A stretch of DNA of 47,380 bases from a virus. The first letter of the stretch is position 1, and every line of letters starts with the position of its first letter. Position numbers and translations under genes: made by a program. Positions 28,036-44,597 of this stretch are shown here, piece by piece. Location of the stretch: positions 1-47,380 of the IMG/VR virus record IMGVR_UViG_3300017917_000934; one strand, 5' to 3'. The notes below the pieces were generated by a model. It did no database searches, was not told the origin of the DNA, and worked only from the letters and a program-made list of their open reading frames with translations.

Positions 28036-28057
28036 AGAATCTCCCCCTTGATACACT

Positions 28058-28086: not shown

Positions 28087-29280
28087 CTAGCCCATTATCC
28101 AAGTTAAGGGCTGACCACCATCTACATAGTTACGTATTTGCTCATCTAACTCTTTAAGCATTTCTGCACCTTCTGCTTTTAATGCTTGGCCGTTAAGGCT
28201 TGTGCCGCCTTGTGGACCAGCAATACTTGCAAATTTTTCACGAGCATTACCAATACTCATAATAGTTAGAGCGTAGGCATAGTCTTGAATCCACGGGAAT
28301 GCCTGTGGATCATTTAGTAACATAATATCTGGTTTGTAGTTGTAGATCCATAACAAGACTGTTTCAGTAACAGCATTTTCTGGGCTGCTTGGACTACTTA
28401 CAAAAGTTGACGCTAGTGCCATGTCGTTAACCACCGTAGCACCCAATGCCGCAGTGTTTAAGAATGTAAAGATCTGTTGTGTAGGGTCTACACTAGTAAT
28501 GGTGTATGTTCCATTATAACCAGCAACAGGGCAGTTTGAAATACTTACTGTGCTACCAACACTAACACCCTGCCAAGGTCCTTGACTAGAAATTTGGAAT
28601 GTAACTGTACTACCAGGTGCTGTGCCTGTGGCTGTTAGACTCTTAAGTCTTAGACTAGCACCACTACCTTGGAATGGAATCTTGCGAACAAGAGTAAGTT
28701 TCTTAGTGACCTTATTCCATGTAAAGTTCATAAAGCCACCAAACATTTTCATAGCAAGTTTTTGGTAGTCTACAAACAATTCATAGTTAGTTAAGCCGCC
28801 TACACGACCTGCTACTAACATATAAGTGTTTAAGTATCCGCTAGCAAATGGTTCAAACTGGCTAGCAGTTGTACCTGTTACACTACCAATACCACGACGG
28901 AAAACCTGTTTCACGTCCATGATAGTGTTAGGGAGAATGTATTCTTGTACTTCAGGATATAGGTCTAAGAAAGCATAACTTTCTTCTACTGAATTTGAAC
29001 TACGTTGACGATATCGTATTAGTGCTTGTTTAATACCCATGTCAAAGTGTTCTTTGTCTGCTTCAACATCAATCATACCGTAACCTAAGCGTAGGCGAAT
29101 ATAATCAATAATAGCATTTTGTTGACTTTGTACTGTGGTCAACTGTGCGGCAAGATTAGCATCAAATGCTATATGGCCTGCACCGGAGCCTGTATATGGA
29201 TTATAAAGACTCTCAGTCTGCATACTTAAAGTTGCAGTTAGATTGCCTGTTGCTGAAACGTTTGCTGGTAGTAGACTCAT
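28087..29280 (-). CDS. 13: gp13, neck protein
   Basis: T4 gp13 joins the portal to the neck after packaging. The 397-residue protein (T4 gp13 is 309) has the helical start IDYIRLRLGYGMIDVEADKE and HFDMGIKQALIRYRQRSSNS. It then has LYPEVQEYILPNTIMDVKQV, and at the C-terminus PWIQDYAYALTIMSIGNARE with KFASIAGPQGGTSLNGQALK and AEGAEMLKELDEQ, the hallmark end of gp13. Residues about 215-300 are an inserted beta domain (GPWQGVSVGSTVSISNCPVA...NGTYTITSVDP). The ATG has ACAGGAT upstream, and that site is one arm of a 13-bp inverted repeat enclosing the late promoter, which could block translation from read-through RNA. Confidence 0.85.
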   Translation of the reverse strand: MSLLPANVSATGNLTATLSMQTESLYNPYTGSGAGHIAFDANLAAQLTTVQSQQNAIIDYIRLRLGYGMIDVEADKEHFDMGIKQALIRYRQRSSNSVEESYAFLDLYPEVQEYILPNTIMDVKQVFRRGIGSVTGTTASQFEPFASGYLNTYMLVAGRVGGLTNYELFVDYQKLAMKMFGGFMNFTWNKVTKKLTLVRKIPFQGSGASLRLKSLTATGTAPGSTVTFQISSQGPWQGVSVGSTVSISNCPVAGYNGTYTITSVDPTQQIFTFLNTAALGATVVNDMALASTFVSSPSSPENAVTETVLLWIYNYKPDIMLLNDPQAFPWIQDYAYALTIMSIGNAREKFASIAGPQGGTSLNGQALKAEGAEMLKELDEQIRNYVDGGQPLTWIMG

Positions 29281-29284
29281 GTAA

Positions 29285-29326
29285 ATTATCCTGTTACCAA
29301 GTATTTATCGATAGTAACAGGATAAT
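29285..29326 (-). promoter_or_regulatory. Late promoter inside an inverted repeat (gp13 switch)
   Basis: ATTATCCTGTTAC (29285-29297) and GTAACAGGATAAT (29314-29326) are perfect 13-bp arms. The 16-nt loop holds an exact minus-strand GATAAATA at 29302-29309. The promoter-proximal arm contains the gp13 ribosome binding site (ACAGGAT). RNA reading through from the early operon can fold and hide it; RNA started at the octamer lacks the upstream arm. Confidence 0.7.
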
Positions 29327-29330
29327 TTGT

Positions 29331-30542
29331 TTATTGAACTTTTAACAAGATTGTATCTTGATTGATACGCCCGTTGAGTTTAACTTCAGTTGCTTTGATG
29401 TTTTCTAAGAACTTGCGTAGGTCAATCTTGCCTGCGGCCAAAAACTCTTTGATTTGTTGTTCTGGTTTGCGCAGAGTTTTGCTTACGCTCTTGTTTTCGT
29501 TGTATCCTGTAATAGTAGTGCCCTTAACACCTAGTACACCGCCCATGTCCTCAGCAACATACTTGCCCAGTTTACGTGTTTTAACATTGTAAGTCCACAG
29601 AACCTGTGCACCAATAATATCCACAGGATTGATACTTACTGCTTTAGTTACTGTATCATTCTTTAGATACTTGAGTTTAGCAACAAGTTTTTCTTTTGCA
29701 GGAGGTTTACGTACACTGGCCTTTTTAGTTGCTTTCTTAACTTGACTGTATTGCGCAAATCCATCAAACAAGGCAGTATAAAATGCTTCAATGCGTTTAT
29801 AGTCTGCGGATTTAAGATGCGCATAAGCATCCTTTAGGTCCTCGTCTTTAGTAGACTTTGCTTCGTTAAACTCAGCACGACTACGCTCAAACGGAGCAAG
29901 AATACGTGCAATAGTAGCAGGCGCTACGTTTTTAGCGATTAGGTATTCGTAGGCTTTGGGTTCAACTGCCTTGCCTTCAAACAGTCGATCTTCTAGTTCT
30001 AAAAAGTGTAGTTGGTGCTTGTCTGCTATTGCGTTCATACGATCTTGTATTGTAGGCACCTTTACGTCAGTCTTAGCCACCTTTGTGTCAGTCTTTGCTG
30101 GTGCTTCATCGTCATCTGCCATTTGTTCTTGTAGTTTAATAACTTCATTAACAGTGTTAAGCAGATACTCTACGTGTTTGTCACGCAAGGGCATACCTTT
30201 AGTATGTGCTTTAATGATAGCACAGGCAGTAAGCGGAGTTAGGCTGTCTTTAGTTTTAGCATAGTAGTCAACTGTGGCTTTATCTAACTTGTGATATTCA
30301 CTGTCTTTGCCCGTGTGTTCTCGTAACCATGCTACAAAGTATTTCTTAAGGTCTTTTACACCATAGTAATAATTGTAGTAGCGCAGGGCCTTACGCAAAT
30401 GATGGTCAAATTCTTCGTCTGTAAACTCAAGTGCTCGTGCTGTGTCCCACACTGGTTCTGTGCCTGTGTACTTCTCGTCAATAAACATAGGATCACGGCT
30501 TACCTTAGCCTTTTTCTTTGCACCATCAATTTTAATTGCCAT
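29331..30542 (-). CDS. Conserved hypothetical protein of the early operon (403 aa)
   Basis: Function not recognised. It is lysine-rich and largely helical, with FDHHLRKALRYYNYYYGVKD then LKKYFVAWLREHTGKDSEYH near residues 45-85, a pattern I associate with conserved proteins of marine T4-like phages. An acidic-basic linker (DDDEAPAKTDTKVAKTDVK) is followed by a second helical region. A C-terminal 120-residue domain has VLWTYNVKTRKLGKYVAEDM and IRINQDTI-like strands. TAGGAG precedes the ATG inside the 62-aa gene, so translation is coupled. It is the last gene of an early operon just upstream of gp13. Confidence 0.65.
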   Translation of the reverse strand: MAIKIDGAKKKAKVSRDPMFIDEKYTGTEPVWDTARALEFTDEEFDHHLRKALRYYNYYYGVKDLKKYFVAWLREHTGKDSEYHKLDKATVDYYAKTKDSLTPLTACAIIKAHTKGMPLRDKHVEYLLNTVNEVIKLQEQMADDDEAPAKTDTKVAKTDVKVPTIQDRMNAIADKHQLHFLELEDRLFEGKAVEPKAYEYLIAKNVAPATIARILAPFERSRAEFNEAKSTKDEDLKDAYAHLKSADYKRIEAFYTALFDGFAQYSQVKKATKKASVRKPPAKEKLVAKLKYLKNDTVTKAVSINPVDIIGAQVLWTYNVKTRKLGKYVAEDMGGVLGVKGTTITGYNENKSVSKTLRKPEQQIKEFLAAGKIDLRKFLENIKATEVKLNGRINQDTILLKVQ

Positions 30543-30720
30543 TGTTCGCTCCTAATTTAAATTTCTTTAGATATTCACTTGCCTGAGATAAATCTTTAAT
30601 AGGTTCTAACTTATCTAACTCGATTAATTCATTGTGTAGTTTAATTATCTGCATGGCTCTATACAATTTATTGTATTTGCCTTCTAGAAAATAGTGTTGT
30701 GTCCAAATATATTTTTTCAT
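30532..30720 (-). CDS. Small hypothetical early protein (62 aa)
   Basis: Not recognised. It is basic and helical (KKYIWTQHYFLEGKYNKLYR, then AMQIIKLHNELIELDKLEPI), with no signal peptide. AGGATA precedes the ATG, which lies 2 nt from the stop of the 89-aa gene, and its own end overlaps the start of the 403-aa gene by 11 nt. These close joins show it is translated in the same early operon. Function cannot be inferred. Confidence 0.6.
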   Translation of the reverse strand: MKKYIWTQHYFLEGKYNKLYRAMQIIKLHNELIELDKLEPIKDLSQASEYLKKFKLGANNGN

Positions 30721-30722
30721 AA

Positions 30723-30992
30723 TTATCCTGCTAGTAATACCGCAAATGTTAGCATACGTTCGTAGTTTGCTATCTCTTCATTAATCTTGTCAACCATTTG
30801 TTTATGATTGCTTGTTTGACGACCCATTCTGCGGCAGTTTATTTCTTCTTTACTTAGTTCACTTACCATAAGCCCGATGTTTCTACTTACCTTTAGCATT
30901 TCACCGCTGTATTTTTTCATGCGACGGGCAGGTGCTTCTAACTGTGTTTGCACAGCAGGCCAATCTACGCTTGTTTGTATTTGATTTGTCAT
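30723..30992 (-). CDS. Small helical protein, first gene of early operon (89 aa)
   Basis: Not recognised. The sequence is helical and amphipathic (WPAVQTQLEAPARRMKKYSG, then VSRNIGLMVSELSKEEINCR). The start chosen is the ATG at 30992. A TTG at 31028 would extend the frame by 12 codons, but it lies inside the -35 box of a strong promoter, so it cannot be in the transcript. The predicted transcription start is 0-1 nt from this ATG, so the mRNA is probably leaderless. It leads an operon with the 62-aa and 403-aa genes. Confidence 0.6.
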   Translation of the reverse strand: MTNQIQTSVDWPAVQTQLEAPARRMKKYSGEMLKVSRNIGLMVSELSKEEINCRRMGRQTSNHKQMVDKINEEIANYERMLTFAVLLAG

Positions 30993-30999
30993 TTTCAGT

Positions 31000-31028
31000 A
31001 GTATAGCATCAATTCGATTGCTTGTCAA
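31000..31028 (-). promoter_or_regulatory. Early sigma70-type promoter (89-aa gene operon)
   Basis: A perfect TTGACA (31023-31028) and TATACT (31000-31005) on the minus strand are 17 nt apart. Seven nt separate the -10 box from the ATG at 30992, so the transcript would be leaderless or nearly so. Confidence 0.8.
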
Positions 31029-31033
31029 GTGTA

Positions 31034-31041
31034 GATAAATA
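31034..31041 (+). promoter_or_regulatory. Late promoter octamer GATAAATA (gp14)
   Basis: An exact GATAAATA on the plus strand lies 21 nt before the gp14 ATG, with TTAGGAC between. It is back to back with the minus-strand early promoter at 31000-31028, so early and late transcription diverge from one short region. Confidence 0.75.
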
Positions 31042-41643: not shown

Positions 41644-44558
41644 TATGACACCGCCAATGTGGAAACTGTTTGTCCACTTGCAAGGGCAATTCTAACTAAA
41701 GCAACATTATTAGTTGCTGAGGACAAACTCACGTTACCTAAAGTAACTGCGAATGTTCCGCTTAATGCTACGTTGGCTGCAACTAAGGCGCCAGTGCCGC
41801 AACCGTTTGATCCATTACCGCCTGCACCTGTGTTTGATCCAGGACGACCAGATCCAGCATAACTTGTTGTAGCGTCTAACCAACCGTTTAATCCGCTGGT
41901 TTGATCAATAAATGTACCTGGTGCAGCCACCCACACACCCGCAACACCTGATGGTGCAACAAGATGTAAGTTAAAGCCGCTTACACCAGTACGTTGTAGG
42001 CCCATGGTAAAGTATTGGAAACTTGTACCATCACCTGAACGATTAGGTCCTACTGGTAAGAACACATTACCGTAGTCACTGGTATCATATCGTAGGACAC
42101 CCATACGAATAGTTGCTTCACGTGTGCCAGCAACACCGGGGTCGCTTGCTTCTGTGTAGACATTAGGACTAGTCATAAAGTTAGTTGAACCTACATAACT
42201 AGGTGTATGTGTAGTACTGCTTAAGAAGTAAGTACTACGCACCGCAGGGTTGGTATTTGCTGATGTGTTAGCACTGATAGCAATTTCGCTGATGCCACTT
42301 TGCGCCGCAGTGTGAACTTGAATTCTTCTTGTGTTTACATTTCTAGCAGTGCTGGTTCCGTTAACGTTTGTGGCTACAACTTGAATATTAGCCACAGCAC
42401 GAACACTGGCTTGGTTAACGGCCACTGTCAAGTTGGCTAGACTGTAAGCCGCAACGTTGCCTGTACCTGCAATAGGAGTACCGCTGGCCAACATTGGACT
42501 TGATACGTTACTTAAATGTACGTAAGCATGTGTGTTGGCTAGAACTACGTTGCCACTGCCTTCTAATACTGTACCAGAGTTCACTGCCACTACGTTAGCA
42601 GTATTGTTCCATGTTTGGCCAATCCAACTGCTGATAGTTAAGTCTTGCAACCATAGTTGTGGACTGCCTGTGTTAAAGTATGGAACACCAGAAATATAAC
42701 GATATGTACCAGGTGCTCTGATTGCTACATTGCCGCCGCTAACTGTTGGCGCACTGGTCACATCATCTTTGACAAATTCAACATTACCTGTTGTTCCAGT
42801 TGATGAATGATTTAATCCAAAGCGATTTATACCAACAGGTATACTACCGCCTTGTGCGACTACGTTGGCAGTGAATCCCCAGAATGCACCTGGGTAGTAA
42901 ACTGAACTTGCAAAGGTTGTGCTAGCACCTGCTGATGTTAGCAACCAGAAGTCGCTAAAGGCAATCACGCCCAAGTTGCCTGATATTGTAGGTGTTGTTT
43001 GTGCGGCTATGTTTACATTGCCACGAACTGTGCCGTTTACCACCGCTTGTAGATATCCTACATTGGCGCTGACTGAATAGTTAGTAGTAACGTTACCTGT
43101 TGTGTTGATCAACGTTGTGCCTGTGGCCACTGTACGACTAACACTGGCATTGGCAGATAATGTTGTGCCGCCTGTGTTATCCACTGCTCCGCTTGCTAGA
43201 GTTGCGTTTGTACCAACACTGCCACTAAATGATAATACTTTTGTATTAAGTCCTGCTGGACTGCTAATATTAGCATCATAGACTTTAACGTTAGCAATAT
43301 TAGCACGTGGTATTACGCTAGGGTTAGCAGTAGTATGGCTTGTTAAGAACAAGCGCATGGTATTTGTAGTTGCTCCAGAACTTGCAGTGTAACTAGGAGT
43401 ATAGGCTAAACGACTACCTAACACACCACCGCTGGCACTGTCATTGGCAATGGCCACGTTACTAGTACCGTCACCCCAATTCATTTGGTAGGCAACAGAT
43501 GCCATTGTAGTGTTGGTAGTAGTGTTTTGCATGTAGATAGTATTACCTTCTACTACCCATAGATTATTACCTGTTAGTGCAGAACCGCCACTGGATGCAC
43601 GATATAAATCAAACTGTACATTAGGGTCTGCTGTGTAAATGATAATATAATCAATTCTCTCAAAACTTGCTTCACTGCCTGTGCCTAATCCTGCGCTGTT
43701 ATACGCACGAACTGTTACATCAAAAGGACTGTTTGTATTATCATTATAAGTTTTTGTTGGTGTTGTAGTAGATACTGCGTTGCTGTAAGTGCCATCGCCC
43801 CATGCAATATCATAACGGTTAGCACTGCCTGTTGGTACTATAGTTAATGTTACGGTAGTGCCAGCACCACCTGCTGTTGGTGCTCCTGTAAATGTCACGC
43901 TCTTAACAAAAGTGTTAGCGCGAACATTTTCCATCATTTCGTTTAGGTCATCAATAGCATCTGTAACTAGTGTTGTGTTTGACCAAAATGCCCATGCGCC
44001 AGGAAAACGAATATTACCGTCTGTTGGGTCACCTAAAGGTATTAGGTTACCAAAGTTTGTGCCAACTACCTGTTGATCAACATAGGCTTTAGTTGCGGCA
44101 TCTGTATTGTTAATTGGATCTGCTACATAGATGATTCTGTTGTTACCAGCGTTAATGATGCTATTACCATTAACAACAAGATTACTTAGATTAATATTAC
44201 CTACAGTTAGACTACCGGTAACAGTTAAGTTGCCTAACGGGCCTACATTGGTAATATATGGTTGATTATTAGTTAGTATTGTGCCAGTAACTTGGCCAAA
44301 GTAACCTGTGTTCCATTGATTAGCAATACTACCTATATCAAATGCTAAATTTGCTCCTGAATAGATATGTCCGTTGCCGGCTAAAATATTACCATTGACA
44401 TGAAGTGCTTGTTGCGGGGTATCTGTGTTAACCCCTATGCGATAGTTAACAACGTCCCAATATTGTAAGGTCAGGCCAGAAGAGGTTAGGGCAAGGTCAG
44501 TACCTTGTCGGTCTAGATTTGCTAAAAGAGAATACCCGGGAACTCGACTGATTGCCAT
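41643..44558 (-). CDS. Tail fibre protein with PKD-like domains (971 aa)
   Basis: The N-terminal 200 residues are fibre-like (RIGVNTDTPQQALHVNGNIL, LGNLTVTGSLTVGNINLSNL, then TDAATKAYVDQQVVG, a fibre linker motif). Residues about 235-310 and 355-420 contain PKD-type elements, YDIAWGDGTYSNAV with YNDNTNSPFDVTVRAYNSAG, and YQMNWGDGTSNVAI. PKD folds are Ig-like domains often found in surface adhesins. The rest is Asn/Thr/Val-rich beta sequence. A Gly/Asn-rich stretch (GRPGSNTGAGGNGSNGCGTG) lies near residue 925. A late octamer inside a 9-bp inverted repeat precedes it, with AAGGTTGGAT as ribosome site. Likely a host-recognition adhesin. Confidence 0.8.
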   Translation of the reverse strand: MAISRVPGYSLLANLDRQGTDLALTSSGLTLQYWDVVNYRIGVNTDTPQQALHVNGNILAGNGHIYSGANLAFDIGSIANQWNTGYFGQVTGTILTNNQPYITNVGPLGNLTVTGSLTVGNINLSNLVVNGNSIINAGNNRIIYVADPINNTDAATKAYVDQQVVGTNFGNLIPLGDPTDGNIRFPGAWAFWSNTTLVTDAIDDLNEMMENVRANTFVKSVTFTGAPTAGGAGTTVTLTIVPTGSANRYDIAWGDGTYSNAVSTTTPTKTYNDNTNSPFDVTVRAYNSAGLGTGSEASFERIDYIIIYTADPNVQFDLYRASSGGSALTGNNLWVVEGNTIYMQNTTTNTTMASVAYQMNWGDGTSNVAIANDSASGGVLGSRLAYTPSYTASSGATTNTMRLFLTSHTTANPSVIPRANIANVKVYDANISSPAGLNTKVLSFSGSVGTNATLASGAVDNTGGTTLSANASVSRTVATGTTLINTTGNVTTNYSVSANVGYLQAVVNGTVRGNVNIAAQTTPTISGNLGVIAFSDFWLLTSAGASTTFASSVYYPGAFWGFTANVVAQGGSIPVGINRFGLNHSSTGTTGNVEFVKDDVTSAPTVSGGNVAIRAPGTYRYISGVPYFNTGSPQLWLQDLTISSWIGQTWNNTANVVAVNSGTVLEGSGNVVLANTHAYVHLSNVSSPMLASGTPIAGTGNVAAYSLANLTVAVNQASVRAVANIQVVATNVNGTSTARNVNTRRIQVHTAAQSGISEIAISANTSANTNPAVRSTYFLSSTTHTPSYVGSTNFMTSPNVYTEASDPGVAGTREATIRMGVLRYDTSDYGNVFLPVGPNRSGDGTSFQYFTMGLQRTGVSGFNLHLVAPSGVAGVWVAAPGTFIDQTSGLNGWLDATTSYAGSGRPGSNTGAGGNGSNGCGTGALVAANVALSGTFAVTLGNVSLSSATNNVALVRIALASGQTVSTLAVS

Positions 44559-44561
44559 TAA

Positions 44562-44597
44562 AATAATCCAACCTTTACACTATTTATCTGGATTATT
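44562..44597 (-). promoter_or_regulatory. Late promoter inside an inverted repeat (971-aa fibre)
   Basis: AATAATCCA (44562-44570) and TGGATTATT (44589-44597) are perfect 9-bp arms; the loop ends with an exact minus-strand GATAAATA (44581-44588). The downstream arm includes the TGGAT ribosome site. The arrangement is the same as at gp13. Confidence 0.65.

Follow-up and report, generated by a model that had tools for sequence, protein, structure and literature searches.

Several genes of phage T4, namely e, soc, I-TevI, I-TevII and gene 49, have been named as being controlled by hairpins that silence early read-through RNA (PMC3014915, PMC2988022). The e and soc genes are late genes located downstream of early genes; in early read-through RNA a hairpin buries the Shine-Dalgarno (SD) sequence, while the late RNA lacks the 5' arm (PMC3014915, PMC2988022). 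The hairpins of T4 I-TevI, I-TevII and segB and of Aeh1 mobE combine hairpin, SD and late promoter in the same arrangement (PMC2988022). The T4 late TATA box is positioned about one helical turn upstream of the transcription start (PMC2988020), and ATAAATA was proposed as the late promoter of phage CBB (PMC5259590). Gp13 is absent from the T4 genes named in the two reviews (PMC3014915, PMC2988022), and a hairpin at gp13 is unmentioned in the openly accessible papers found.

Here, we describe a candidate locus of this kind in a DNA stretch of 47,380 nt from a large tailed phage, referred to as the window, in whose numbering the hairpin coordinates are given. The putatively controlled gene (28087–29280, minus strand) encodes a gp13-like neck protein of 397 amino acids (head-tail adaptor Ad2; phrog_211, E 3.9e-27), of which jumbo phages including PA5oct, GAP32, CBB, RaK2 and 121Q have homologues. 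With a probability of roughly 0.8, we propose that a hairpin enclosing a late promoter silences gp13 in read-through RNA. The comparative sequence data support its membership in the T4 e/soc/I-TevI class, which would represent a known mechanism at a new gene and in new lineages. It shares with e and soc the putative burial of the SD in early read-through RNA, the predicted late RNA without 5' arm and the position downstream of a putative early operon. In contrast to them, it would control a neck gene in a jumbo-phage lineage far from T4, has a longer perfect stem and is retained, with covarying arms, in more than 100 distinct sequences. Unlike the T4 and Aeh1 endonuclease hairpins, it precedes a virion protein gene and not a mobile endonuclease gene.

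The hairpin and its upstream operon

Read on the minus strand, the sequence from the 403-aa open reading frame (ORF) to gp13 is AAATTATCCTGTTAC-TATCGATAAATACTTG-GTAACAGGATAATTT-AC-ATG. The 5' arm (29314–29328) is a perfect 15-bp complement of the 3' arm (29283–29297) and covaries in relatives; the two enclose a loop of 16 nt (29298–29313). The first-pass annotation had placed perfect 13-bp arms around a 16-nt loop at 29285–29326; perfect pairing and loop length stand, but the stem is two base pairs longer at its base. This is the longest perfect hairpin in the 47 kb scanned, the runner-up having only 11 bp. Folding of a 146-nt region yielded −36 kcal/mol compared with −24.6 ± 3.3 kcal/mol for shuffled sequences, none of 200 being as low; the energy was computed on the plus strand, the perfect stem being identical on both strands.

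Both signals that had been assigned to the hairpin were found in place. The T4-type late promoter motif GATAAATA (29309–29302) lies within the loop (29313–29298), and the gp13 SD AGGA (29292–29289), 8 nt before the ATG at 29280, lies within the 3' arm. With the late start set 5 nt after TAAATA, which is our own setting, late RNA is predicted to begin at ~29296 inside the 3' arm and would carry no 5' arm, so that the latter should occur only in RNA reading through from upstream. Opening of the SD is predicted to require 13.6 kcal/mol in the read-through RNA and 0.6 kcal/mol in the late RNA. The overall frequency of ATAAATA is not raised in the window (14 versus 17 expected), and it is therefore the placement of the motif before genes alone that is telling: seven of the 12 motifs on the minus strand are situated 19–37 nt before gene starts, where 4% are expected by chance.

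The claim that an operon of 89-, 62- and 403-aa ORFs reads into the hairpin agrees with the gene arrangement. The three ORFs (30723–30992, 30532–30720 and 29331–30542, all on the minus strand) are in line upstream of gp13, and at their head lies a putative early sigma-70 promoter, TTGACA-17-TATACT with extended −10 (31000–31028, minus strand), which matches the consensus at 11 of 12 positions. The stop codon of the 403-aa ORF (phrog_11903) is 2 nt ahead of the 5' arm. A homologue of this ORF adjoins gp13 in PA5oct, and members of its family are found beside glutaredoxin and rnh in phiM12 and near DNA ligase in Mendera. Glutaredoxin, rnh and DNA ligase are genes of early or middle type. RaK2-like phages have macro-domain and peptidyl-tRNA-hydrolase-like genes before gp13 instead. 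The predicted structure of the 403-aa protein (mean pLDDT 68.8, pTM 0.34) was not used. An Rfam search returned nothing besides a sub-threshold SAM_alpha riboswitch match inside the 403-aa ORF (29704–29777; 24.8 bits, cut-off 36), which is probably due to chance.

Two further observations concern the head of the operon. At 30990–31041, the early minus-strand promoter, with its −35 box at 31028, abuts the plus-strand late motif (31034) of a virion protein gene, and abutting opposed early and late signals are also present in the relatives L146, L004 and L019. The 89-aa ORF starts only ~7 nt past the −10 box (30990–31005), so that its early RNA would be nearly leaderless; the spacing is comparable in L004 and L019.

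We propose the following sequence of events. Early in infection, host sigma-70 RNA polymerase would transcribe the 89-62-403 aa operon and continue into gp13. The read-through RNA would fold into the 15-bp hairpin, and gp13 would remain untranslated because its SD is buried; thus, no neck protein would be made from this RNA. Later, polymerase with the phage late sigma factor would initiate at ~29296, giving an RNA with most of the 3' arm and none of the 5' arm, in which the SD would be free and gp13 translated. In this scheme we infer that read-through RNA exists, where exactly late transcription begins and that translation is lost.

Conservation and covariation in relatives

A sample of 222 loci from relatives was reduced to 130 distinct gp13 upstream regions, 124 of which were scorable. 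The rule-based score takes the best stem in which the 3' arm lies over the SD and the 5' arm precedes the predicted late start, with a threshold of 18. Stems scoring at least 18 were found in 105 of the 124 regions. The identical scan of T4 served as positive control, for which we took gene identities from the first residues of each protein. I-TevI (24.5), e (23.5), I-TevII (21.5) and soc (20.5) appeared in the first ranks and gene 49 scored 17.5; for I-TevI and gene 49 the scan gave p values above 0.05, and T4's own gp13 was not among its recognised matches. The gp13 hairpin of the window scores 36.5, above every published T4 case in the scan.

The presence of the hairpin is linked to the direction of the upstream gene. 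Among the 113 regions classed as co-directional, 103 score at least 18, and p ≤ 0.01 against shuffles is attained by 93. An SD-covering hairpin was found in none of the eight regions with a clearly divergent upstream gene (Fisher p 1.6e-7), a hand-made list (L124, L129, L131, L220, L238, L249, L260 and L262) three of which, without a motif or SD that could be used at the called start, were counted as hairpin-less. Such p values are inflated because the relatives are not independent. The divergent cases do not represent the same gene inverted, since the upstream neighbours in Atu_ph07, Phosso, SCTP-2 and Vibrio 2.275.O, which were compared with the 403-aa ORF, show no similarity to it. Of 77 hairpin-bearing relatives, 54 have sigma-70 matches of 11–12 of 12 positions ahead of gp13; for the opposite strand, the count is 3 of 77. 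The silencing reading is in keeping with an early promoter upstream, a late motif within the loop and the lack of a hairpin beside a divergent gene.

Some regions are co-directional and have no clear hairpin, namely L146, L158, L221, L242, PA5oct and most PA5oct-like contigs; in L161, also co-directional, the stem scores slightly below the threshold. L146 (2430–2500) encodes a gp13 that is 86% identical and has the early promoter and no clear hairpin, which makes it a natural variant for comparison. The annotated start of the 121Q neck gene (L127, 2441) falls within the 3' arm of the hairpin, and an ATG 15 nt further downstream, after GAGGTGCTTTTTT, is the likelier start. A distant blastn search of the hairpin region against phage records gave no match, and the exact hairpin pattern was not found in the genome contigs searched.

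Covariation of the arms in relatives had been suggested as a check of the hairpin, and the arms passed it. With arms in register, the pairing of each region's own arms was 0.896 compared with 0.608 for permuted arms and a maximum of 0.663 in 2000 permutations, in a set of hairpins preselected for pairing and hence biased toward own-arm pairing. Outside the SD core, several Watson-Crick types are present at each arm position. In the clade of the window (18 sequences, MAFFT alignment), 12 cells were changed on both sides compared with 3.3 in shuffles (0 of 500), and shifting the partner arm abolished pairing; three pairs in this clade had a double change, which is no more than in shuffles. G.U wobbles occurred 82 times and A.C/C.A mismatches, which were scored alike, 16 times, an excess that points to coding-strand RNA rather than to a DNA palindrome. 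The median SD opening cost in hairpin-bearing regions is predicted to be 13.1 kcal/mol in read-through RNA and 1.4 kcal/mol in late RNA. The sequences themselves thus offer a hairpin, sense-strand RNA covariation, the positions of SD and late motif, a predicted early promoter and a link to upstream-gene direction. This comparative evidence supports the earlier suggestion that a T4-like timing device controls gp13, although timing and silencing are deduced from it. On sequence grounds, the T4 timing trick looks widespread at gp13.

Alternative roles of the stem

Alternatively, the hairpin might chiefly end transcription of the early operon as an intrinsic terminator whose loop holds the late promoter, the SD overlapping the stem solely through compact packing. 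As in intrinsic (rho-independent) terminators, T5–T8 follows the stem in many relatives: at least five T within the last 8 nt before the ATG are present in 53% of the hairpin-bearing gp13 regions (56 of 105), compared with 4.9% of 324 other genes. The T-run is found in 14 of 15 regions of the GAP32/CBB group and in 9 of 20, 19 of 26 and 9 of 18 regions of three groups with 55–60%. However, it directly follows the stem in none of the 18 sequences of the window's clade. The stem is A+T-rich at its base, and, unlike intrinsic terminators, the hairpin has a promoter within its loop and the SD within its stem, the latter whether a T-run is present or absent. We therefore regard termination as an unlikely main function. 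In about half of the hairpin-bearing relatives, the T-run after the stem suggests that early transcription may also be terminated there; termination is probable as an added function in some relatives and improbable as the main one in the window. SD hiding is the constant feature, to which termination was probably added in some lineages.

In the window, where the 403-aa ORF stops 2 nt ahead of the 5' arm, the hairpin could be disturbed by a ribosome terminating at this site, and ribosomes finishing this ORF might open the stem so that gp13 is made early and in step with it. Such translational coupling seems highly improbable, because the upstream stop codon lies anywhere from ~40 to 73 nt before the gp13 start in relatives, RaK2-like phages have a different gene upstream and the late promoter in the loop would be superfluous. 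Least probable of all is that the near-perfect palindrome surrounding the promoter acts as DNA, as an operator or a cruciform, given that its arm sequences vary freely with pairing preserved, its sense-strand wobbles are G.U and seldom A.C, its 3' arm coincides with the SD across all scored regions and it is absent where the neighbouring gene is divergent.

Similar layouts and implications

Beyond the silencing of gp13, we tentatively consider that promoter-containing hairpins might act as two-way insulators between temporal classes in this phage group, many of them combining SD hiding with termination, although we hold this wider idea to be somewhat less probable than its opposite. Early read-through RNA would be silent for the late genes gp13 and tail sheath, as would late read-through RNA for the early dNMP kinase gene that lies between them. 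Stems at p ≤ 0.05 were found in 32 of 86 distinct tail sheath regions and in 28 of 66 distinct dNMP kinase regions, T-runs being present in 79% of these 28. In the window itself, gp13 is the only clear case of the insulator type. Case by case, the sheath and kinase layouts are weaker and are to be taken as a lead.

At tail sheath starts, a gp13-like layout is seen in RaK2-like phages (TTTAATCCTCCAATAAATA ... TTGGAGGATTAAA) and in the L027/L055 group, and a long-range anti-SD arm immediately precedes the late promoter in L128, L130, L136 and others as well as in L027 and L055. At dNMP kinase starts (e.g. L055, L027 and L021) the layout is mirrored: the SD is covered by a hairpin, which often has a T-run. 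Most of the 5' arm of this hairpin precedes the start predicted for the sigma-70 promoter of the kinase itself, so that late RNA reading through from gp13 would be either stopped or silenced. In the window, the dNMP kinase start (near 28056) has no mirror hairpin. Two genes in relatives stand out as single cases, an HNH endonuclease gene with a hairpin arranged like those of the T4 and Aeh1 endonucleases (G002:57881) and a baseplate hub gene (G001:73111). In the window, the late motif at 44588 before a 971-aa ORF lies between 9-bp arms AATAATCCA/TGGATTATT (44557–44595); this hairpin is kept only in part in the relative G004 and was not significant under the SD rule.

In conclusion, the gp13 hairpin would bring a virion gene from a wide range of large phages under a T4 timing device that is textbook knowledge for a small number of genes. 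The rule that the hairpin is present with a co-directional and absent with a divergent upstream gene can be applied directly as a prediction to further genes and phages. Another idea open to test is that a single hairpin may both hide a ribosome site and end the early RNA.
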